Notes under the pieces: generated by a model
What the model was told of the DNA's origin: nothing
The model's database searches: none
What the model saw: the letters and a program-made list of their open reading frames with translations, nothing else
Program-made: the position numbers and the translations under genes
Assembly: GCF_024734665.1 (NCBI RefSeq)
Contig: NZ_CP102931.1
Location: forward strand, 186,001-250,000
DNA: 64,000 nt
Direction of reading: 5' to 3'
DNA from: Variovorax paradoxus
Lineage (GTDB): Bacteria > Pseudomonadota > Gammaproteobacteria > Burkholderiales > Burkholderiaceae_C
Shown: piece after piece, positions 7,401 to 26,376 of the stretch
How positions within the stretch are numbered: the stretch's first letter is position 1
How the letters are laid out: each line of letters opens with the position of its first letter

Positions 7401-7943
7401 ATGCCGTCGTCGCCCGCTTTCTCTTCTTCCTGGCTTGCGCTGACCGCGGCAGCCCTGCTCGCAGCCTGCAGCCCCACTTTCAACTGGCGCGAAGTACAGG
7501 TCGCCGAATCGGGCCTGATCGCGCTGCTGCCCTGCAAGCCCGACCGCGCAAACCGCGCCCTGCCATTGGGCGCCGAATCGGTGCAGGTCGACATGGCGGG
7601 CTGCGAAGCCGGCGGCGCGACCTTCGCCATCGCGCACGCCTCCGCCAAAGGCCCCGAACAGGCCGAGGCCTGGCTCAACGCATGGCACGCTGCCACGCGC
7701 GGCCAGCTGGGAGAAGCGCAGATGACGGAAGGCCCCGCCAGCGTGCAGCGCGCGACCGCCACGCCCGCCCCGCTGCGGCTCGACGCCCAGCCAAAGCAGC
7801 AGGGCGCCGCGCCGGTACAGGTGCTCTGGTTCGCCCAGTCGCAAAAAGACGGCAGCGTTGCGCTCTACCAGGCCACCGTACTGGGCAGGCCTTCCTCGGC
7901 CGAAGCGCCAAAGACGTTCTTCGAGGGCCTGCGGCTCCCATGA
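7401..7943 (+). CDS. Putative lipoprotein of unknown function
   Basis: A 180-residue exported protein with a lipoprotein signal: hydrophobic stretch WLALTAAALLAAC with a lipobox ending at the invariant Cys. The mature part begins SPTFNWREVQV and has the pattern of small Comamonadaceae lipoproteins that include the words LLPCKPDRA and VQVDMAGCEAGG, giving two further cysteines that could pair. No enzymatic motif is visible. It is divergent from the TlpA-like gene and is followed by the PTS genes after a 134-base gap, so it may have its own transcript. Confidence 0.75.
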   Translation: MPSSPAFSSSWLALTAAALLAACSPTFNWREVQVAESGLIALLPCKPDRANRALPLGAESVQVDMAGCEAGGATFAIAHASAKGPEQAEAWLNAWHAATRGQLGEAQMTEGPASVQRATATPAPLRLDAQPKQQGAAPVQVLWFAQSQKDGSVALYQATVLGRPSSAEAPKTFFEGLRLP

Positions 7944-17165: not shown

Positions 17166-17205
17166 GTCGTCGCGCAATGACGGTCCGTCGTCGCGCAACG
17201 ACGGT
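17166..17205 (-). promoter_or_regulatory. Tandem 19-bp operator, 21-bp period (AraC-type)
   Basis: Two direct repeats, 17166-17184 and 17187-17205, match at 18 of 19 bases and share GTCGTCGCGCAA and GACGGT. Their centres are 21 bp apart, two helical turns, the classic arrangement for AraC-family regulators. They lie between the AraC-family gene and the exporter gene, ending 23 bases before the exporter ATG. Confidence 0.75.
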
Positions 17206-17226
17206 TTTGCGCCGGGGAAGGCGCAG

Positions 17227-17934
17227 TCAGCGGCGCAGCGCGGCGGTGAGTGCGGAGTGCGATCGGTAGCCCGTGCGCCGCGCCGTCTCAGCGACGCTCA
17301 TGCCGCCCAGCCGCAGCTCACGCGCATGCGCCAGCCGCAGCGAGCGCAGCCAGTGCATCGCGCTCACGCCCTGTTCGTCGCGGCAGCGCTGCGCGAACTG
17401 GCTCGGGCTCAGGCAGGCGACATCGGCCAGGTCGGCCACGCTCAAAGGTTCATGCCAGCGGGCTCGGGCCCAGTCGGCGAGCAGGGTCCAGTCGATGCGT
17501 CGGCGGCGCGAATCGGCAGATGCCGGTGCGGGGCTCCAGGCCTCCAGCAGCAGCGCGGGGCCGTGCTGCAAGGCCAGGGCCGAGGCCTGCGGTTGCTTCA
17601 TGCATTGCGCCAGGTAGCGCGCCAGCGTGTGCAGTTGCGGTGCGTCGGGCGGTGCGCGCTCGGCGCAGCGGGCCCATGCCGGCTGCGTGGTGTCGAGCAC
17701 CAGGCACAGGCTGCCGTGCTTGCGCGCGCTGAAGTCGTGCCGGTCGCCCGGGGCGACCACCTGCGCCTCGCCCACACCGATGCCGGCGCCCCGGCCTTCG
17801 ACCTCGATTTCCAGCACGCCGTCGAGGCCGATCAGCACCTGGAAGTGGTCGTGCGCGTGGCTGCCGTGCGAGTGGCCGTAGTCGCGCAGGGCGAGTTCAT
17901 GGTGGGGCAGCGGGGAGGAACCGAGGACAGGCAT
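17227..17934 (-). CDS. AraC-family transcriptional regulator with cupin domain
   Basis: Regulator of 235 residues: an N-terminal cupin-like sensor (about 1-90, with the His-rich HSHGSHAHDHFQVLIGL and GDRHDF) and a C-terminal AraC double helix-turn-helix (about 140-235) with LADWARARWHEPLSVADLA, LSPSQFAQRCRDEQGVS and the second helix MSVAETARRTGYRSHSAL. It ends close after the second helix, slightly shorter than usual. The exporter gene follows after 84 bases containing a tandem repeat operator, so the exporter is the likely target. Confidence 0.9.
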   Translation of the reverse strand: MPVLGSSPLPHHELALRDYGHSHGSHAHDHFQVLIGLDGVLEIEVEGRGAGIGVGEAQVVAPGDRHDFSARKHGSLCLVLDTTQPAWARCAERAPPDAPQLHTLARYLAQCMKQPQASALALQHGPALLLEAWSPAPASADSRRRRIDWTLLADWARARWHEPLSVADLADVACLSPSQFAQRCRDEQGVSAMHWLRSLRLAHARELRLGGMSVAETARRTGYRSHSALTAALRR

Positions 17935-17984
17935 GGGCTGTCATGGATTGTCCACGCAGCGCCTCGGCAATGCCACAAGCAGCA

Positions 17985-18536
17985 TCAGCCTCCGTCGGCG
18001 TCCTGCAGCGCCTGCCCGTTGACCCGCACCGCTTCGACCAAGCGCCCCTGGCCCGTCGCCAGCGGCTGTGAGCGGCCCTCGGCCCGCACCTTGTCGCCGA
18101 CCTTCAGGGCCAGCCGCGCGAGGCCGTCGGGCTTTGTGTGGACGAAGTCGCCAGTGTCCAGCACCACGCCGTTGGCCTGTCCGTGGCGCGCGTAGTTGAA
18201 GCGAACTACCGTGCCGTCGATGCGTTCACCGGCGTCCACCTGCCGCGGCGCCTTGCCGTCGACCGAGGCCAGCCGCTCGAAGCGGTAGACCGTGTGTTCG
18301 GTTTCGCCTTTGGGCGAGGGGTCTTGTTCGATGCCCTCGATCACCAGCGCCTGGCCGGCCTGCAGGCCGGCAAACGCGGGCGCGGCGCATTCGTCGTGGC
18401 GATCGAACACGAACTGCGTGGGCACGCCGTCGGTGTCGATTAGCACGCCTTCGATGCGGCCCTTGGGGCTGTAGACCAGGTGCTGGAAACGGCCTTCGAC
18501 CGACCAGACGTCGAGGGTGTCATGAGGATGTGGCAT
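17985..18536 (-). CDS. Soluble two-module protein of unknown function (OB-fold-like)
   Basis: A 183-residue cytosolic protein without signal peptide, not recognised. It contains two copies of a module of about 65 residues, starting at VEGRFQHLVYSPKGRIEGVL and IDGTVVRFNYARHGQANGVV; the pattern G-x-h-x2-h-x-Y-x2-G-x2-x-G-h-h-h-D suggests small beta-barrels. The same module occurs twice in the exported protein at 21018-21815, the first gene of this operon. ATG 18536 has AAAGGA upstream; a longer in-frame start is rejected. Last gene of a four-gene operon with two transporters. Confidence 0.7.
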   Translation of the reverse strand: MPHPHDTLDVWSVEGRFQHLVYSPKGRIEGVLIDTDGVPTQFVFDRHDECAAPAFAGLQAGQALVIEGIEQDPSPKGETEHTVYRFERLASVDGKAPRQVDAGERIDGTVVRFNYARHGQANGVVLDTGDFVHTKPDGLARLALKVGDKVRAEGRSQPLATGQGRLVEAVRVNGQALQDADGG

Positions 18537-18578
18537 GGGATGTCCTTTGTCAGTATGTTTGTGAAGCAGAAAGCGCAA

Positions 18579-19736
18579 TCAACCGAGCCGCAGCAGCACT
18601 GCGGATGCCGCGCACACGATCAGGAAGGGAATGCCGATGCGATGGAACTCGCGCAACCCGTGCGGCACCTTGGCCAGCCGCAGCGCGATGAGGTTGGCCA
18701 GCGAGCCCAGCACGCAGCCGAAGCCGCCCACGCTCACCCCTGCCGCCAGCGCGGGCAGGTCGTGCACGTAGCGGTCCAGCAGGATGGTGGCCGGCACGTT
18801 GCTGATGAACTGAGAGGTGACGATGGCCGCGAGGTACGCGCGCCAGCCCTCGGCAATCGGCCACTGGCCCACCAGCGTAGCCACGGCCGGCAGTTCGGCC
18901 AGCTGGCGCAGGTCGACGAACATCAGCGCGATGATCGCCAGCAGTGCCCAGTCGACACCCAGCAGCACGCGGCGCTGGAACAGCAGATAGGCGACGAACA
19001 CCACCACCAGGCCAGCCAGCAGCCAGTGCCGATCGAGCGCGACGACGAAACCCACGAACAGCACGCCCGACAGCGCCAGCAGCCTCGGCTGCACCGGTGC
19101 AGCCTCGGCGGCCGGCTTGAGCGCGATGGCCGTGCGCGGCACCAGCAGCCACACGGCCACGAACAGCCAGAACAGCATGACGAGCACGGTGGGCGCCATC
19201 ATGAGCATGAAGCCACCGAAGCTCTCCCCGGTGCGGTGCCACAGGTACAGGTTCTGTGGATTGCCGATGGGCGTGAGCGCGGAGCCCGCGTTCACCGCCA
19301 GTGCCTGGAGCACCACCAGCCGCGCCAGCGGCAGGTGCGCCTGCGTGGCCAGCACGCGCGTGAGAGGTACCAGCAGGAACAGGCTCACGTCGTTGGTGAC
19401 CAGTGCCGACAGCACGGCGGCCGTGGCGGTGAGCAGCAGCGCCAGTTGGCGCAGATTGGTGGTGCGCGCCAGCAGCCGCTGGGCGGCCGACTGCAGCATG
19501 CCGCTCTTTTCCACGCCCTGCGTGATGGCGAGCAGCCCGGCCAGGGCCCCCACAGTCTGCCAGTCGATCAGCTTGAGCCAGTCCATCGGCGCGCGCGGGC
19601 GCACAAAGGCGAACAGCACCGCCACCGCCACCAGCACCCAGAGCAGGCCGTTTCCGCCGCCTTCGTGGGTTGCGGGAGCGTCGGCCCCGGAAGCGGCGGA
19701 CGAAGAGGACAGGGTGGACACGGTGTCTTTGGTCAT
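18579..19736 (-). CDS. ArsB/NhaD/DASS-type (CitMHS superfamily) permease
   Basis: Ion-transporter-superfamily membrane protein of 385 residues with about ten helices. Diagnostic segments are TNDVSLFLLVPLTRVL, NAGSALTPIGNPQNLYLW in the first half and QFISNVPATILLDRY in the second, which form the two pseudo-symmetric substrate/ion sites. Substrates in the family range from dicarboxylates to arsenite and Na+. A Ser/Ala-rich hydrophilic N-terminus of about 27 residues precedes the first helix. ATG 19736 overlaps the MFS gene stop by 4 bases. A longer open frame continues upstream but only as a shadow of the MFS gene. Confidence 0.86.
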   Translation of the reverse strand: MTKDTVSTLSSSSAASGADAPATHEGGGNGLLWVLVAVAVLFAFVRPRAPMDWLKLIDWQTVGALAGLLAITQGVEKSGMLQSAAQRLLARTTNLRQLALLLTATAAVLSALVTNDVSLFLLVPLTRVLATQAHLPLARLVVLQALAVNAGSALTPIGNPQNLYLWHRTGESFGGFMLMMAPTVLVMLFWLFVAVWLLVPRTAIALKPAAEAAPVQPRLLALSGVLFVGFVVALDRHWLLAGLVVVFVAYLLFQRRVLLGVDWALLAIIALMFVDLRQLAELPAVATLVGQWPIAEGWRAYLAAIVTSQFISNVPATILLDRYVHDLPALAAGVSVGGFGCVLGSLANLIALRLAKVPHGLREFHRIGIPFLIVCAASAVLLRLG

Positions 19737-20998
19737 GGAGCGGCGGTGGTCAGTGCGGAGGCGGCCGGCGCGTTCGCCATCGAACGGCGCCGGTCGCGAG
19801 TTTCCGGCATTGCGAGCGCAAAGAGCGTCAGCGCAGCGGCCGCGATGCCCGCCAGCATCACGAAGGCCGTGCCATAGCCGGCCAGGTGCGCGACCGTGCC
19901 CGCCACCAGATTGCTGAGCGCTGCGCCCAGCCCCACGCAGGCTGCGCCGATGCCCAGCGCGAAGTTGAAGTGCCCGCTGCCGCGCGTGATGTCGCCGATC
20001 ATCAAGGTCAGCATCACGCCGAAGATGCCCGCGCCGATGCCGTCCAGCACCTGCAGCGACAGCAGTGCGGCCGGGCTGTCGGCCAGCAGGTACAGCAGCC
20101 CCCGCACCGGCAGCACCGCGAAGCCGGCCAGGAAGATGGGCTTGCGCGCCAGTCGCGGCGCCCAGCGCCCGACCGCCAGGGCAATCGGAATGGTGACCAG
20201 CTGCGTGACGATCACGCCGCCCGACAGCCACAGCGTGGCCGAGGTGCCGGCCCGCGTGCCGACCTTCTGCGCCACCAGCGTGAGCATGGCGGCGTTGGCC
20301 AGGTGGAACAGAAAGGCGCAGACCAGCAGCACGATGAAACGGCGGTCGTACCAGCGTGCGGTGGAACGCGGCGCGTCGGCTTCGTGATCGGCATCGGCAT
20401 CGGCGCCGCGCGCCAGTCGTGGATCGACGTCGCGCTTGCGGATCAGCATGGCCGCCGCGATGGTCGGCAGCGCCATCGCCACCGCGTAGAAGAACATGGC
20501 ATGCGGCCCGAACGCGTGGCCCACCCAGCCGGTGCCCAGCGCCCACAGCACCGTGCCCGCCGCAGTGATCGCGGCGTTGCGGCCGACGCGCGCATCCAGC
20601 CCGGCGCGGCCCACCATGCCCAGGCTGACGGCCGCGATGGCCGGCGCCACCAGCGTGCCCGCAGCGCCGATGAGCGACTGGCCCGCCAGGATCACACCGT
20701 AGCCCGGCCAGTTCGCCATGACCACGAGGCACGCAGCAATAAGTGCGATGGCCCCGGCGATCCAGCGCGGCTTGTGCCGCGCGCTGTCGATCAGCGCGCC
20801 GGCCGGCGCCTGCACCAGCAGCCCCACCAGCGCCGAGACGAACATCACGGTGCCGATGCGCTGCGGGTCCCAGGCCAGCGTGCCGGCCATGAAGACGATC
20901 AGGAACGGACCGACACCGCCCTGGATGTCGGGCGCGAAGAAGGCCAGTGCGTCGAGTGCGCGCAGGCTGCGGCGCGAAGGTGCGGCGGAGGAGGTCAT
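19733..20998 (-). CDS. MFS transporter
   Basis: Major facilitator superfamily protein of 421 residues with twelve hydrophobic segments and a charged central loop (about residues 196-215, rich in Asp and Ala). The N-terminus includes DALAFFAPDIQGGVGPFLIVF, typical of a subgroup annotated only as MFS transporters; the loop after helix 2 reads DSARHKPRW. Substrate is unknown. It begins 19 bases after the exported two-module protein gene and is coupled by ATGA to the permease gene behind it. Confidence 0.88.
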   Translation of the reverse strand: MTSSAAPSRRSLRALDALAFFAPDIQGGVGPFLIVFMAGTLAWDPQRIGTVMFVSALVGLLVQAPAGALIDSARHKPRWIAGAIALIAACLVVMANWPGYGVILAGQSLIGAAGTLVAPAIAAVSLGMVGRAGLDARVGRNAAITAAGTVLWALGTGWVGHAFGPHAMFFYAVAMALPTIAAAMLIRKRDVDPRLARGADADADHEADAPRSTARWYDRRFIVLLVCAFLFHLANAAMLTLVAQKVGTRAGTSATLWLSGGVIVTQLVTIPIALAVGRWAPRLARKPIFLAGFAVLPVRGLLYLLADSPAALLSLQVLDGIGAGIFGVMLTLMIGDITRGSGHFNFALGIGAACVGLGAALSNLVAGTVAHLAGYGTAFVMLAGIAAAALTLFALAMPETRDRRRSMANAPAASALTTAAP

Positions 20999-21017
20999 GG
21001 CAGGCTGGGCTGGAAGA

Positions 21018-21815
21018 TCAGGACGCCGGCATCGGGGTCGGTGGCGCCATCAGCGGTGCGTATGGCGCGGGGCCGGCGCCCCTCGGGCCGCGGGGACCGC
21101 CGGGGCCTCGGTGTGCAGGCTCCAGCCCCGGGCCCCCGAACACCTCGCGCACCGTGTCCGCGGTCGGACCCATGCTGGTGGCCTCCAGCGCCGTGCCCTG
21201 TGCGCCGCGCGTGCCCCAGCCGCGCGCATGGAACTGGGCGCCGGGCTGCAGCTGCGCGCCGTACATCGCGCCGATGTGCGGCGGAAAGCGCACGGTGGTC
21301 TTGTCCGCGAGAAGCACGCCGTGCACGTCGCCACGGTCGGTGTACAGCAGGCGATCGATGCGCCCGCCCGCCGACAGGGCAACGAGCGCGCCCGGCTCGC
21401 GCGGCGGCGGGGCCATGCCGGGCACCGGCGGCTCGTCGGTCACGCTGCGGCCGTTGGCGGCGAGCGACTGCATGCGCACCACCGGTACGCCAGGCGCGCG
21501 CCAGCCGCTGACCTGCACCGTATCGCCGGGCCTGAGTATCTGCATCACTGCAGCCGAGAGGTGCGGCGGAAATGCGACCTGCGTGCCGTCGGCCAGCAGC
21601 AGCCCGTCGGCCTCGCCGTTCGGGTTGAGCAGCCATTGCTGCACGCGGCCGCTGGCGACCGTGCCCGCTGTCGGCACGGCGTGTGGCAGTGGCGCGGTGG
21701 CGCCGGGCCGCTGCGGGGGGAGCGGTCCGCCCGATGGTGGGGGCGGCATCTGGGCGAAGGCGGCGCTGCCGGCCAGCAGGCAGGCGGCGGCGATGAAGGT
21801 GATACGGGGTGTCAT
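21018..21815 (-). CDS. Exported two-module protein of unknown function (OB-fold-like)
   Basis: First gene of the operon; 265 residues with a Sec signal peptide (1-21, ending AFA-Q). After a Pro-rich linker come two copies of the module also found in the 17985-18536 product: around residues 54-122 (GRVQQWLLNPNGEADGLLL, then VAFPPHL) and 150-215 (GRIDRLLYTDRGDVHGVLL, then VRFPPHI). Both carry FPPH, absent from the cytosolic protein. The tail is Gly/Pro-rich. AAGGAG lies 7 bases before ATG 21815. A sigma-54-type promoter lies about 26 bases upstream. Confidence 0.75.
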   Translation of the reverse strand: MTPRITFIAAACLLAGSAAFAQMPPPPSGGPLPPQRPGATAPLPHAVPTAGTVASGRVQQWLLNPNGEADGLLLADGTQVAFPPHLSAAVMQILRPGDTVQVSGWRAPGVPVVRMQSLAANGRSVTDEPPVPGMAPPPREPGALVALSAGGRIDRLLYTDRGDVHGVLLADKTTVRFPPHIGAMYGAQLQPGAQFHARGWGTRGAQGTALEATSMGPTADTVREVFGGPGLEPAHRGPGGPRGPRGAGPAPYAPLMAPPTPMPAS

Positions 21816-21850
21816 GGTCAGCTCCTTGTGTGGATGGATGCCCAAGGACA

Positions 21851-21868
21851 TCTCACACAACGTGCCAG
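21851..21868 (-). promoter_or_regulatory. Candidate sigma-54 promoter (-24/-12)
   Basis: On the minus strand the -24 box is a perfect TGGCACG (21867-21861), followed after four bases by GTGAG where TTGCW is expected, so the -12 GC reads GA. The predicted transcript start is near 21841, about 26 bases before ATG 21815. A consensus IHF site and inverted half-sites lie upstream at correct distances. Confidence 0.6.
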
Positions 21869-21884
21869 CGCATGAATCCTTTTA

Positions 21885-21897
21885 AATCAACAACTTG
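21885..21897. promoter_or_regulatory. Consensus IHF-binding site
   Basis: AATCAACAACTTG matches the IHF consensus WATCAANNNNTTR at every defined position. It sits at about -44 to -56 relative to the predicted sigma-54 start, between the -24 box and the inverted half-sites, where IHF bends DNA in NtrC-type promoters. Confidence 0.6.
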
Positions 21898-21932
21898 CGT
21901 GTGTTTGGCAGCTTGCCATCGCATGATCCGGA

Positions 21933-21960
21933 GACACCGGGTGTCCGGTTTGCGGACACC
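21933..21960. promoter_or_regulatory. Inverted half-site cluster (candidate NtrC-type enhancer)
   Basis: Three GGTGTC half-sites in alternating orientation: GACACC-G-GGTGTC (21933-21945) overlapping the perfect palindrome GGTGTCCG-N5-CGGACACC (21940-21960). It lies at about -92 to -119 of the predicted sigma-54 start and ends 6 bases from the stop of the NtrC-family regulator gene. Confidence 0.65.
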
Positions 21961-21966
21961 TGCGGC

Positions 21967-23337
21967 TCATTCGAGCCCGTACTGCGCCAGCTTTCGATAC
22001 AGCAGCTGCCGGTGAATGCCCAGCCGGCGCGCCGTTTCGGCGCGGTTGCCCTGCGTCTGCGCGAGCGCGTTGGCTATCAGCAGGCGCTCGAGCCTTTCGA
22101 CGGCGGCGGGCAGCTCGCCCTCGAGCCAGTCGGCAGGCAGCGTGTCGGGGGCTGCGCCGCGCGGCGAGGCACCGAGCGCGATGGCCAGGTCCGCGCCGCC
22201 GATCACGCGGTGCCGCACCAGCGCGTGGCAGCGCTCCATCACGTTGCGCAGTTCGCGCACGTTGCCCGGCCACGGGTGGCTCAGCAGTCGCTGCGCCGCC
22301 TCGGCCGACAGCGCCTTGGGCGCGTCCGGCGAATGGGACGCATCGGACATCGCCGCGCGGCTCAGGAAGTGCTCCGCCAGCGGAATGATGTCCGCCAGAC
22401 GCTCGCGCAGCGGCGGCATGCGGATCGACAGTACGTCGAGCCGGTACAGCAGGTCTTCCCGGAAGCGCCCCTCGCGCACGGCGGCGGCCAGGTCGCGGTG
22501 GGTCGCGGCGACCACGCGCACGTCGACCTTCACCGTCTTGTGGCTGCCCAGCGGCGTGACTTCGCCCTCCTGCAGCGCGCGCAATATCTTGGCCTGCACG
22601 TCCAGCGCCATGTCGCCGATCTCGTCGAGCAGCAGCACGCCGCCGTCGGCCGCGCGAAAGCAGCCGGGCCGCTCGCCGGTGGCACCGGTGAAGGCGCCGC
22701 GCACGTGGCCGAAGAGCTCGCTTTCGAGCAACTCCTTCGGAATGGCCGAGCAGTTGACGGCCACGAAGGGGCGTTCGGCGCGGGCCGAGTAGCGGTGCAA
22801 GGCGCGCGCCACCATTTCCTTGCCGGTGCCCGTCTCGCCGAGCACCAGCACCGGCATCGCGTTGGCCGCGGCCAGGCCGATGCGCTTGTGCACCTCGCGC
22901 ATCGCCTGGCTCGGACCGATCAGGTCGCCGTCGTCGTCGTCCCCGGTGTTGCTGGCGGACGGCGAGGCCGCCGTCTGCCGCTGCAGCGCGCGTTCCAGCA
23001 CCTCGCGCACCGCCTCGCGGCTGATCGGCTTGGCCAGGTGGTCGAAGGCGCCCAGCCGCATCGCCTCGATGGTGTTGCCCGCGCTCGAGAACGCGGTGAG
23101 CACGATCACCGGCGGCAGCCGCGCCATGCGCGCCTGCAGGGCCGCAAGCGTTTGCAGGCCGTCCATGCCGGGCATGCGGTGGTCGAGGAACACGGCATCG
23201 AAGCGCTCGCGCGACAGCGTCTCGATGGCCTCGTTGCCGCTGGCGACGGCGACCGTCTCGTGGCCCAGGCCCTGCAGCGTCTCGGCCAGCGTGTCGCGAA
23301 AGGCGTTGTCGTCGTCGACGATCAGGAGGTGCGCCAT
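21967..23337 (-). CDS. NtrC-family sigma-54-dependent response regulator
   Basis: Three-domain enhancer-binding protein of 456 residues. Receiver (1-120) with Asp52 in AVFLDHRMPGMDG and KPI near 103; AAA+ domain (about 139-365) with Walker A GETGTGKE (167-174), the sigma-54-contacting GAFTGA loop (214-219) and Walker B region GGVLLLDEIGDM; C-terminal Fis-type helix-turn-helix with GNRAETARRLGIHRQLLYRKL split across about 430-452. An Asp-rich linker joins receiver and AAA+ parts. It overlaps the kinase stop by 16 bases. The inverted repeats six bases beyond its stop are the likely target. Confidence 0.95.
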   Translation of the reverse strand: MAHLLIVDDDNAFRDTLAETLQGLGHETVAVASGNEAIETLSRERFDAVFLDHRMPGMDGLQTLAALQARMARLPPVIVLTAFSSAGNTIEAMRLGAFDHLAKPISREAVREVLERALQRQTAASPSASNTGDDDDGDLIGPSQAMREVHKRIGLAAANAMPVLVLGETGTGKEMVARALHRYSARAERPFVAVNCSAIPKELLESELFGHVRGAFTGATGERPGCFRAADGGVLLLDEIGDMALDVQAKILRALQEGEVTPLGSHKTVKVDVRVVAATHRDLAAAVREGRFREDLLYRLDVLSIRMPPLRERLADIIPLAEHFLSRAAMSDASHSPDAPKALSAEAAQRLLSHPWPGNVRELRNVMERCHALVRHRVIGGADLAIALGASPRGAAPDTLPADWLEGELPAAVERLERLLIANALAQTQGNRAETARRLGIHRQLLYRKLAQYGLE

Positions 23338-24782
23338 GGAAGTTCCAGTTCGAAGCGGGTGCCCGGTGTCAGCGGCACGTGATGCAAGTCACCGCCATGC
23401 GCCAGCGCCACTTCGCGTGCCAGCGCCAGTCCCAGCCCGGTGCCGTCGGCGCGGCCGGTGGCGAAGGGCTCGAACAGGCTGGCCTGCAGCGATTCGGGCA
23501 CGCCGGGGCCGTCGTCGTCCACGCGGATGGCCAGCGTGCGCGCATCGGGCTGAAGGGCCGAGAGCACGACGTGGCCGCCGCGCGGCGCGTGGCGCACCGC
23601 GTTGTCGAGCAGGTTGTCGACCGCGCGCGCCAGATGCACCGGGTCGAACACGGCCTGCGCAGGTCCGTCATGCCGCAACGCTACCTGCACGCTTGCCGCA
23701 CCGGACTTGTTGGCGACGGCCGCGACGCGCTCTTCGAGCCAGCGATGCAAGTCGACCTGCAGCGGTGCCAGCGTCACCGGCTGCACGAGCGCAAGAAGGC
23801 TCTGCACCAGCCCATCGAGCCGGTCGATCTGCCCGACGATCACGCGCAGTGCCTCGCCCTGCTTCTCGGGTGTGGCGGCCAGTGCGTTCTCGGCCTTCAG
23901 CCGCATGGTGGCGATGGGGTTGCGGATCTCGTGCGCGATGCCGCCCGTCATGCGGCCCAGCGCGGCCAGGCGCTGGTCGCGGCTGCGCTGCTGGGCGGCC
24001 ACGCGCAGGTGGGCGCGGGCCTCCTCGAAGCGCAGGCGGTAGTGGTTGAAGCCGTCGACGATGCGGTCGAGCTCGCGCACGCCGGTGCGCGGCAGCTCCG
24101 GCATGGCGCCGCCGACGGCATCGGCCTGCGCCAGCCGGTTTTCCAGGCGCTGCACGTGGCGCAGCCCGCGCAGCAGGATGAAGCCCAGCCACAGGCCCGA
24201 AGCCAGCACCAGCAGCAGCAACACGCCCAGCCCGGTGCGCAGGCTGTCCTGCGCAGCCAGCGCACCGCCGTTGGTACGGGTCATGGTCCAGGCCGCCAGG
24301 TCGTTGCCCGGCGCCGCCAGCGGGCAGGCCGCGACGATCAGCGCCTCGCGGCTGCCGCGCACCACGTCGGTCTGCGGCTGTTGCGTGCGGGCCGCGAGCT
24401 GCGCCATTTCGGCGATCAGCGGCTGCTCGGCGGCAGGCACGTCGCGCTTCACGCCGCTGCCTTCGTAGGTTGGGTAGGCGTAGGCCAGCTGGCCGCCGCC
24501 GGCCTGCCACACGCCGCCTTCGACGTGCGGCGCCTCGACCAGCACCAGCTGCAGCAGCACCTGCAGCAGGTCGACCTGGGGTTGTGCGGGGGCGGGCGCG
24601 GTGGCCGACCTGGCATAGCGCGCGGCGATGGCCCGGCACGACTGCTCGGTGGCCGTGCGCCCCGCCGCCACCTGCGCGCCCGCACTGCTGCGGTACAGCG
24701 TGAGCATCACCACCGCCAGCGCGGCGCACATGCCGAACAACAGCACCCAGAAGAACAGCAACTGACCGCGCAGGGATTTCAT
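23322..24782 (-). CDS. Sensor histidine kinase, partner of NtrC-type regulator
   Basis: Membrane kinase of 486 residues. TM1 (about 5-28) and TM2 (about 180-202) enclose a periplasmic domain of some 150 residues; then a helical linker, H-box TGGIAHEIRNPIATM, and an ATPase domain with AVDNLLDNAVRHA, VDDDGPGVPES and GTGLGLALAREV. I chose ATG 24782 (MKSLRGQLLFFW) because it starts at the membrane segment and has AGGA ten bases upstream; GTG 24833 would add 17 residues overlapping the ligase gene. Ligand unknown, presumably the cargo of the downstream transporters. Confidence 0.9.
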   Translation of the reverse strand: MKSLRGQLLFFWVLLFGMCAALAVVMLTLYRSSAGAQVAAGRTATEQSCRAIAARYARSATAPAPAQPQVDLLQVLLQLVLVEAPHVEGGVWQAGGGQLAYAYPTYEGSGVKRDVPAAEQPLIAEMAQLAARTQQPQTDVVRGSREALIVAACPLAAPGNDLAAWTMTRTNGGALAAQDSLRTGLGVLLLLVLASGLWLGFILLRGLRHVQRLENRLAQADAVGGAMPELPRTGVRELDRIVDGFNHYRLRFEEARAHLRVAAQQRSRDQRLAALGRMTGGIAHEIRNPIATMRLKAENALAATPEKQGEALRVIVGQIDRLDGLVQSLLALVQPVTLAPLQVDLHRWLEERVAAVANKSGAASVQVALRHDGPAQAVFDPVHLARAVDNLLDNAVRHAPRGGHVVLSALQPDARTLAIRVDDDGPGVPESLQASLFEPFATGRADGTGLGLALAREVALAHGGDLHHVPLTPGTRFELELPWRTS

Positions 24783-24819
24783 CTGCCGCGATCCTGCTCC
24801 GCCTTCGGGCCGCGGCGCA

Positions 24820-26376
24820 TCAGCCGTGGTCACGTTCGCGCAGTTCGCGCTTGAGCACCTTGCCGATGGCGCTGCGCGGCAGCTCGTCGATGAAGCTCAG
24901 CCGCGCCAGGCGCTGCGTCTTGCCGAGCTGCGCGTTGGTCCATTGCAGCAGCGCGTCTTCGCTCGTGGCGTCGCCCTCGCGGCGCACCACGAAGGCCACA
25001 GGCGTCTCGCCCCATTGCTCCGACGGCACGCCGACCACCGCCACGTCGGCCACCGCCGCATGGCCGCGCAGCACGGTCTCGAGGTCGCTCGGGTAGATGT
25101 TGAAGCCGCCGCTGATGATCATGTCCTTCTTGCGGTCGAACAGCGTGAGGAAGCCGTCGGCGTCGAAGCGGCCCACGTCGCCGGTGCGGATGAAGCGCTT
25201 GCCGGTGGCGTCGAACCACTCGGCCTCGCGCGTCTTCTCGGGCTGGCGGTGGTAGCCGGTCATCATGCCGCCCGAGTGGCCCACCACCTCGCCGGCCACC
25301 TCGGTGTTGCCGCGCGGCAGCTCGTTGCCTTCCTCGTCGATCAGGCGGATGTCGCTGCCCTCGGCGGGCTGGCCCACCGTGTGCAGCTTGGTCGGGTGCA
25401 GGTGAGCTTCCAGGATGCAGGTGCCGCCGCCCTCGGTCATCCCGTAGAACTCGATCAGCCCGCCGGGCCAGCGCTTGAGCACGTCGCCCTTGAGCGCGGC
25501 GTTGAAGGGCGCGCTGGTGCTGAACTTGAACTTGTAGGAAGACAGGTCGTGCTCGTCGAATCGCGGGTGCGCCATCAGCCGCTGGTACTGCACCGGCACG
25601 AGCATGGTGTGCGTCACGCGGCGCTGCTCGGCCAGCTGCAGGTAGCCGAGCGCGTCGAACTTGGGCATCAGCACCACGCAGCCGCCGAAGGCCAGGGTGG
25701 GGAAGAACACCACCAGCGTGGTGTTGGAGTAGAGCGGCGTCGACAGCAGCGTGACGGTGTCGGTGCTGTATTCGTACCTGGCGCCGCGCTGCACATGGGA
25801 CCAGCGCATGCCGTGGCCCTGCACGATGCCCTTGGGCTCGCCCGTGGTGCCAGACGAATAGATGATGTTGAAGGCCCACGCCGGCTGCACCTCGACGGCC
25901 TCGGGCTGCGAACCGGCCGGTGCCAGCCAGCCTTCGATGTCGCGGCCGACCTGCGAGCCGTCGAGCGCGACGCGTGCAATGCCACCGTCCTTCGCGGGGC
26001 CGATCACCTCGGCGGCCGAGGCGTCGCTGAACAGGATGCGCGCGTCGGCGTCCTCGATCATGCGGGCCAGGCTGGCGGGCGTGGAGCCAGGCGCCAACGG
26101 GGCCACCGCGACGCCCGCGCGCAGCGCGCCCAGGAACACGGCCGCGTAGTTCACCGACGACGAGGCGCAGATGGCGATGGCGTCGCCCGCCTTGAGCCCG
26201 TCGCGCTGCAGGCTTGCCGCGACGCGGTCCATCAGCGCGTCGAGCGCGCGGTAGTCCAGCGTGCGGCCGGCATCCGCCAGCGCGGCGTGGTCGGGTGTGT
26301 GTTGTGCGTGGAGGCGAACCAGGTCGGCAATGGCGCCGAAACTGCGTTCCATAGAGGCTTGAACAGCGGGGTGCAT
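24820..26376 (-). CDS. AMP-dependent acyl-CoA synthetase/ligase (ANL superfamily)
   Basis: Enzyme that activates a carboxylic acid with ATP and couples it to CoA. The 518-residue product has the P-loop-like motif IIYSSGTTGEPKGIV, the adenine motif FYGMTEGGG, the hinge/core GRFDADGFLTLFDRKKDMI and the C-terminal catalytic lysine in SAIGKVLKREL. The closest-looking families are long-chain and 4-coumarate-type ligases, but substrate cannot be read from sequence. It lies upstream of the kinase gene, with 37 bases between, so it may be co-transcribed with the two-component genes and hint at an organic acid signal. Confidence 0.9.
   Translation of the reverse strand: MHPAVQASMERSFGAIADLVRLHAQHTPDHAALADAGRTLDYRALDALMDRVAASLQRDGLKAGDAIAICASSSVNYAAVFLGALRAGVAVAPLAPGSTPASLARMIEDADARILFSDASAAEVIGPAKDGGIARVALDGSQVGRDIEGWLAPAGSQPEAVEVQPAWAFNIIYSSGTTGEPKGIVQGHGMRWSHVQRGARYEYSTDTVTLLSTPLYSNTTLVVFFPTLAFGGCVVLMPKFDALGYLQLAEQRRVTHTMLVPVQYQRLMAHPRFDEHDLSSYKFKFSTSAPFNAALKGDVLKRWPGGLIEFYGMTEGGGTCILEAHLHPTKLHTVGQPAEGSDIRLIDEEGNELPRGNTEVAGEVVGHSGGMMTGYHRQPEKTREAEWFDATGKRFIRTGDVGRFDADGFLTLFDRKKDMIISGGFNIYPSDLETVLRGHAAVADVAVVGVPSEQWGETPVAFVVRREGDATSEDALLQWTNAQLGKTQRLARLSFIDELPRSAIGKVLKRELRERDHG

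Follow-up and report, generated by a model that had tools for sequence, protein, structure and literature searches.

What switches on a transport operon that begins next to the gene of an NtrC-type response regulator is the question raised by a stretch of 64,000 nucleotides from Variovorax paradoxus (contig NZ_CP102931.1, positions 186,001 to 250,000; hereafter the window, to which positions refer unless another locus is named). Regulator and operon are both read on the minus strand, and for the gap between them, at 21816–21966, an earlier note made from the bare letters had proposed a sigma-54 regulatory region. As far as can be read from the DNA, we find it very probable that the genes OB1-MFS-CitMHS-OB2 are transcribed from an enhancer-dependent sigma-54 promoter in this gap, driven by the adjacent regulator.

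Each element of the gap was compared base by base with the minus-strand sequence. Six bases beyond the end of the regulator's stop codon (21967) begins a putative upstream activating sequence (UAS), a dyad at 21940–21960 that reads GGTGTCCG-CAAAC-CGGACACC and forms a perfect 8-bp inverted repeat with an N5 spacer; its half-sites are GGTGTC (21960–21955) and GACACC (21945–21940), and a third half-site, again GGTGTC, lies at 21933–21938. The three half-sites at 21933–21960 thus stand where the earlier note had put them, but what it called three alternating sites is better described as a single dyad, with the third half-site following 22 bp past the first. A candidate site for integration host factor (IHF) occupies 21885–21897, 30 bp ahead of the -24 box, and matches the consensus, WATCARNNNNTTR, when read on the plus strand. 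The -24 element TGGCACG (21861–21867) is followed in the -12 register by GTGA (21853–21856) in place of the canonical TTGC, and the geometry of the two would put the transcription start at 21841. A Shine-Dalgarno sequence, AAGGAG (21822–21827), precedes the ATG of OB1 (21815–21813). The note had located the IHF match, the -24 box and the AAGGAG and ATG ahead of the operon correctly, as it had the regulator with a GAFTGA loop ending six bases from the first half-site. We also observed two imperfect copies of a CATGCG-TGGCA stretch (83% over 18 nt; 21858–21875 and 21909–21926), one around the -24 box and the other 51 bp upstream, the latter lacking a match to the -12 element.

The regulator itself (21967–23337) comprises, by Pfam and alignment, a receiver, an AAA+ domain and a Fis-type helix-turn-helix. 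In the regulator alignment D8, D9, D10, D52 and K103 were invariant, leaving the acceptor site intact, and the loop reads GAFTGA, so the protein combines the receiver with phospho-acceptor Asp, the AAA+ GAFTGA and the Fis-type helix-turn-helix that mark enhancer-binding proteins of the NtrC family. Its scores fell below the NCBIfam equivalog cut-offs for NtrC (437 bits against 558.6), AtoC (406 against 714), ZraR (369 against 760) and GlrR (372 against 763); judged by these cut-offs, it is a member of the NtrC family but is not NtrC, AtoC, ZraR or GlrR. A sensor histidine kinase (23322–24833, minus strand; Pfam HisKA and HATPase_c) is encoded directly before the regulator, an arrangement found in 35 of 41 loci, with neither gene present in the remaining six. 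At 24820–24833 the kinase frame shares its sequence with the end of a gene resembling acyl-CoA ligases (24820–26376), so that transcription of kinase and regulator may come from upstream. The genome holds a single RpoN match.

Chance is a poor explanation for the combination of elements. When the upstream region in the window was shuffled 100,000 times by dinucleotides, a -24-like motif appeared in 7,190 shuffles and the motif together with the dyad in 38; the motif with the IHF match, and all parts together, appeared in none. In the 7.29-Mb genome there is one copy of the perfect dyad TGTCCG-N5-CGGACA; allowing up to one mismatch gives 9 places, versus 27 for a reversed control pattern. We inspected the 8 one-mismatch dyads elsewhere in the genome as possible further regulon members and claim none of them: one (L098) has a -24/-12-like site scoring 9/11, equal to that of the window, but at 150 bp rather than 91 and without an IHF match, and the others reach at most 8/11 for -24/-12, including one (L093) that has an IHF match and no good promoter.

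To follow the elements across relatives, we searched for OB1 in samples that overlap and include the window's own genome, with matches in 28 of 399 genomes for the family, 27 of 101 for the genus, 7 of 399 for the order, 9 of 398 for the phylum and 1 of 369 for the class, the last being the window's own genome alone. A scan of named genomes returned mostly paralogues among at least 80 loci, from which Bradyrhizobium vignae (L100) and Methylobacterium ajmalii (L101) were used; weak or second OB1 matches (L032, L033, L048, L191, L199–L203) stayed outside the set. We read the stretch upstream of OB1 in 58 loci and found a -24/-12-like element in 53 of them; a 54th such locus (L212) was read separately. 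The five loci without a promoter are three weak OB1-like matches without the regulator (L060, L061, L088), one at a contig end (L074) and L087. In this last locus (G376, at 7484), the front part of OB1 is missing soon after the IHF match, where CTGGC gives way to unrelated sequence; dyad and IHF match are present, and kinase and regulator match only in part.

Among the points on which its proposal could fall, the earlier note had named in advance half-sites that are not conserved in the corresponding gaps of relatives. They are conserved: in 51 of 53 loci a [T/C]GTC-N9-GAC[A/G] dyad starts 89–92 bp ahead of TGGCAC, and in 52 a third half-site, [T/C]GTC, lies at about -66 to -70 from TGGCAC. 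A strict IHF match was found 29–30 bp before TGGCAC in 45 loci (absent in L049, L052, L076, L188, L197, L198, L100 and L101), and dyad, third half-site and strict IHF match occur together in 42 of the 53, versus 0 of 10,600 shuffles. Half-sites, IHF match and -24 box keep their position, spacing and sequence across genera, and do so less strictly in other families, orders and classes. Two dyads 22–24 bp apart are present in 11 of the 53 loci, namely seven of the ten more distant loci (L059, L084, L085, L086, L197, L100, L101) and four loci of the main clade (L065, L066, L075, L188); since both groups have them, the three half-sites seen in the window may be what is left of two dyads, the fourth half having worn away. 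A scan of 48 loci on both strands, covering about 0.7 Mb of DNA or 1.415 million strand-bases, gave 174 -24/-12-like sites, and of the 34 that also had a dyad and an IHF match, 33 preceded OB1 and the remaining one an MFS gene split off from it (L222, at 4370). In that genome (G481), the separated MFS gene is thus equipped with a dyad, an IHF match and a promoter, CTGGCATGGCGCGTGA, of its own.

The perfect 8-bp inverted repeat six bases past the regulator's stop codon would also suit a role as an RNA hairpin, terminating or protecting the regulator transcript, with the promoter elsewhere. Genome rearrangements speak to this point. In nine loci (L049–L053, L072, L077, L079, L190), a CitMHS gene is inserted between regulator and OB1, and the dyad and -24/-12 still lie directly before OB1, with a strict IHF match in seven; in genome G407, the promoter is at OB1 (L067) and the regulator, 83% identical, is on another contig (L225). 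In all ten cases the dyad sits about 90 bp before the OB1 -24 box, and the window's dyad was not among the results of the terminator scan, so that a hairpin role is, in our estimate, barely credible. Since the set is retained at OB1 in these loci, it goes with the target genes and not with the end of the regulator. The dyad, at its fixed distance, was also found together with the regulator, as expected for a UAS. Genus members without OB1 had no orthologous regulator in the three tested (G122, G400, G432; best-scoring match 44%), and in three small genomes of distant bacteria that carry an OB1 relative the regulator match was only 36–37%. No promoter was visible by eye before the gene in these distant genomes, and none was found in the scan of two of the three (L220, L221). 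In such small genomes (L213, L214, L215; L220, L221), the OB1 relative is without an adjoining kinase-regulator pair and without the promoter.

Several observations weigh against a sigma-54 promoter in the gap. The 53 loci were selected by a -24-like motif, although not by dyad, third half-site or IHF match; at least one strict element is absent in 11 of them; the loose -24/-12 pattern alone is not enriched genome-wide (30 matches per strand, versus 27 for the control); and the -12 element reads GTGA rather than TTGC, when C at -12 has been reported, in the excerpt available, for 96% of bacterial sigma-54 promoters (PMC4551910). It is the combination of elements and its conservation that carry the case. 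The departure at -12 would also suit an operon driven by another sigma factor, with the -24-like box serving as the site of another DNA-binding protein. No sigma-70-like site was matched within 17200–25000, however, and the site adjoins the gene of a sigma-54 activator. Moreover, GG at -25/-24, TG at -14/-13 and the spacing between them are invariant in the 42 loci of the main clade, and nine of 11 more distant loci have TTGC in the same register and one CTGC, giving C at -12 in ten. Taken together, these findings make another sigma factor very unlikely, and we retain the sigma-54 promoter.

With correct spacing, the GG at -25/-24 and the G at -13 stand in the window and in 54 of 54 loci, 53 of which were picked by this GG-and-G pattern. 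The base at -12, by comparison, was A in 36 loci (the window among them), G in 8 and C in 10. Within the main clade it is a purine in 42 of 42 (A 35, G 7), with five inferred changes, all between A and G, whereas the spacer at -19 to -16 shows 7–12 changes and positions -9 to -3 show 13–19, nearly all using the four bases; TGGCACG changed once, in a single C-to-T exception. On a tree of 53 regulators (L071, which lacks the DNA at the place of the dyad, was left out), C versus non-C at -12 amounts to two changes, one at the split of the main clade and one in Methylobacterium ajmalii (L101). The purine in all 42 clade loci indicates that the A at -12 is a retained, inherited state and not decay. 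The earlier note was right that A replaces the C, and its description of the -12 as weak gives way to a purine variant conserved in the clade.

Promoters of the same system elsewhere share this state. A -24-like site was present in six of the nine gaps examined between regulator and CitMHS (a real gap is missing in L052 and L072, and L087 has no site), with TTGA following GGGCACG in L050, L051, L077 and L079, and TCGA in L049 and L053; none of these gaps had a strict IHF match. The split-off MFS promoter of L222 has GTGA, which brings the secondary promoters to seven (six gaps before CitMHS and this one). As a weak control, in a GC-rich genome, the seven TGGCACG-N4-TTG sites of the window's own genome comprise three TTGC, three TTGA and one TTGG; the four TTGA and TTGG sites lie within open frames of 478–702 nt and the TTGC sites within frames of 376–518 nt. 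We also considered a trade-off between the two boxes, as a perfect TGGCACG occurs in 2 of 10 loci with C at -12 and in 43 of 44 without (Fisher 4e-7, a naive count), and dropped it: on the tree the -12 C changed just twice, which leaves two independent pairs, and the GGGCACG with TTGA in the four CitMHS promoters contradicts it.

A -12 without C is known from sigma-54 promoters. In the part of PMC4591121 consulted (Table 1), the E. coli hydN promoter, CTGGCATGATTTGTGAA, has GTGA at -12 and is marked as experimentally confirmed, the pspA and pspG promoters have TTGT and are likewise marked, and by our hand count the 42 intergenic sense sites have C in 38, T in 3 and A in 1; an intergenic RpoN site of Y. 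pseudotuberculosis is given as TTGGCACGACTCTTGATT in the excerpt of PMC7657599 (Table 1). The usual C, absent from the window, does not strictly define such promoters, and GTGA is compatible with function because the confirmed hydN promoter has it.

The purine fixed at -12 across the clade also fits a sigma-54 site that is substantially leaky without the C, in which case the operon would be partly constitutive and the regulator would merely boost it; the -12 C is reported, in the passages available, to restrain basal sigma-54 transcription. That these loci also conserve the dyad, the IHF match and the -24 box suggests dependence on activation instead, and the published in vivo bypass data, in the excerpt consulted, concern sigma-54 lacking Region I in E. 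coli. We consider a substantially leaky promoter rather unlikely and keep activator dependence as the preferred account. Our tentative suggestion, possible but short of probable, is that across the promoters of one regulator the clade ancestor lost the -12 C and a purine was then kept, at the main and the seven secondary promoters, as a selected "lock" variant matched to the activator. Loss rather than gain is presumed here from the general consensus, the regulator tree being compatible with either direction. Such a variant may have loosened the fork junction to give basal transport capacity, or may be an activator-specific promoter code near -12; in the part of a review available (PMC7057263), the GAFTGA loops of the activator are placed in contact with Region I of sigma-54 and with the DNA at and beyond -12 on its downstream side.

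Activation of sigma-54 polymerase by NtrC-type proteins is a textbook mechanism, and on this family model the switch would work as follows. The kinase would sense a signal, probably periplasmic, and phosphorylate the adjacent regulator, which would bind the TGTC...GACA dyad and third half-site at about -119 to -92. IHF would bend the DNA at about -50, the looping would let the AAA+ ring remodel RNA polymerase-sigma-54 held at TGGCACG-N4-GTGA, and transcription would start near 21841.

The operon so controlled would begin with OB1 (21018–21815), for which an AlphaFold model (mean pLDDT 79; most core blocks 91–97) predicts two OB-fold domains resembling SSB/PriB-like OB folds; inspection for a signal peptide suggests that OB1 is probably exported, and no Pfam or NCBIfam family matched it at E 0.001. 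An MFS transporter follows (19733–20998; Pfam MFS_1), and the start of a CitMHS-type transporter (18579–19733; Pfam CitMHS) overlaps the MFS stop. OB2 (17985–18578, with a start possibly further downstream) is an OB1-like protein with weak cross-matches to OB1 and no Pfam or NCBIfam family match. An AraC-type regulator lies after OB2 (17227–17934) and is there in four of 40 related loci (L063–L066).

We know of no regulon with such targets (two OB-fold-like proteins, an MFS and a CitMHS transporter), and a search of open-licence PMC literature found no paper on the system. In the portions available, the TGTCCG of PMC10162802 belongs to a primer list, and PMC3162934, PMC4641369, PMC3844500 and PMC3333781 held nothing decisive for the system. 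As far as the literature search tells, what is new is the regulon itself together with the clade-wide purine at -12, on an otherwise textbook architecture. The locus offers a fully laid-out, evolutionarily supported, predicted sigma-54 switch for an uncharacterised transport operon, a proposed UAS consensus of TGTCCG-N5-CGGACA, and, in a clade that is without the -12 C and keeps a purine, a natural experiment on the role of that base.

Compared with known systems, hydN shares the GTGA of the window, but as one promoter against a purine that is clade-wide and extends to secondary promoters here. The psp promoters likewise do without the -12 C and differ in having T, not a purine; their activator is PspF, unlike the regulator here. 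The half-site resembles a [C/G]TGTC motif of PilR, a likeness that the literature search did not return. Systems of the NtrBC, ZraSR, AtoSC and PilSR types have in common with this one the domain order of the regulator, the GAFTGA loop, a -24/-12 promoter, a UAS about 100 bp upstream and a bend site between UAS and promoter, whereas the regulator here lies below the NtrC, AtoC, ZraR and GlrR cut-offs and its half-site is TGTCCG.
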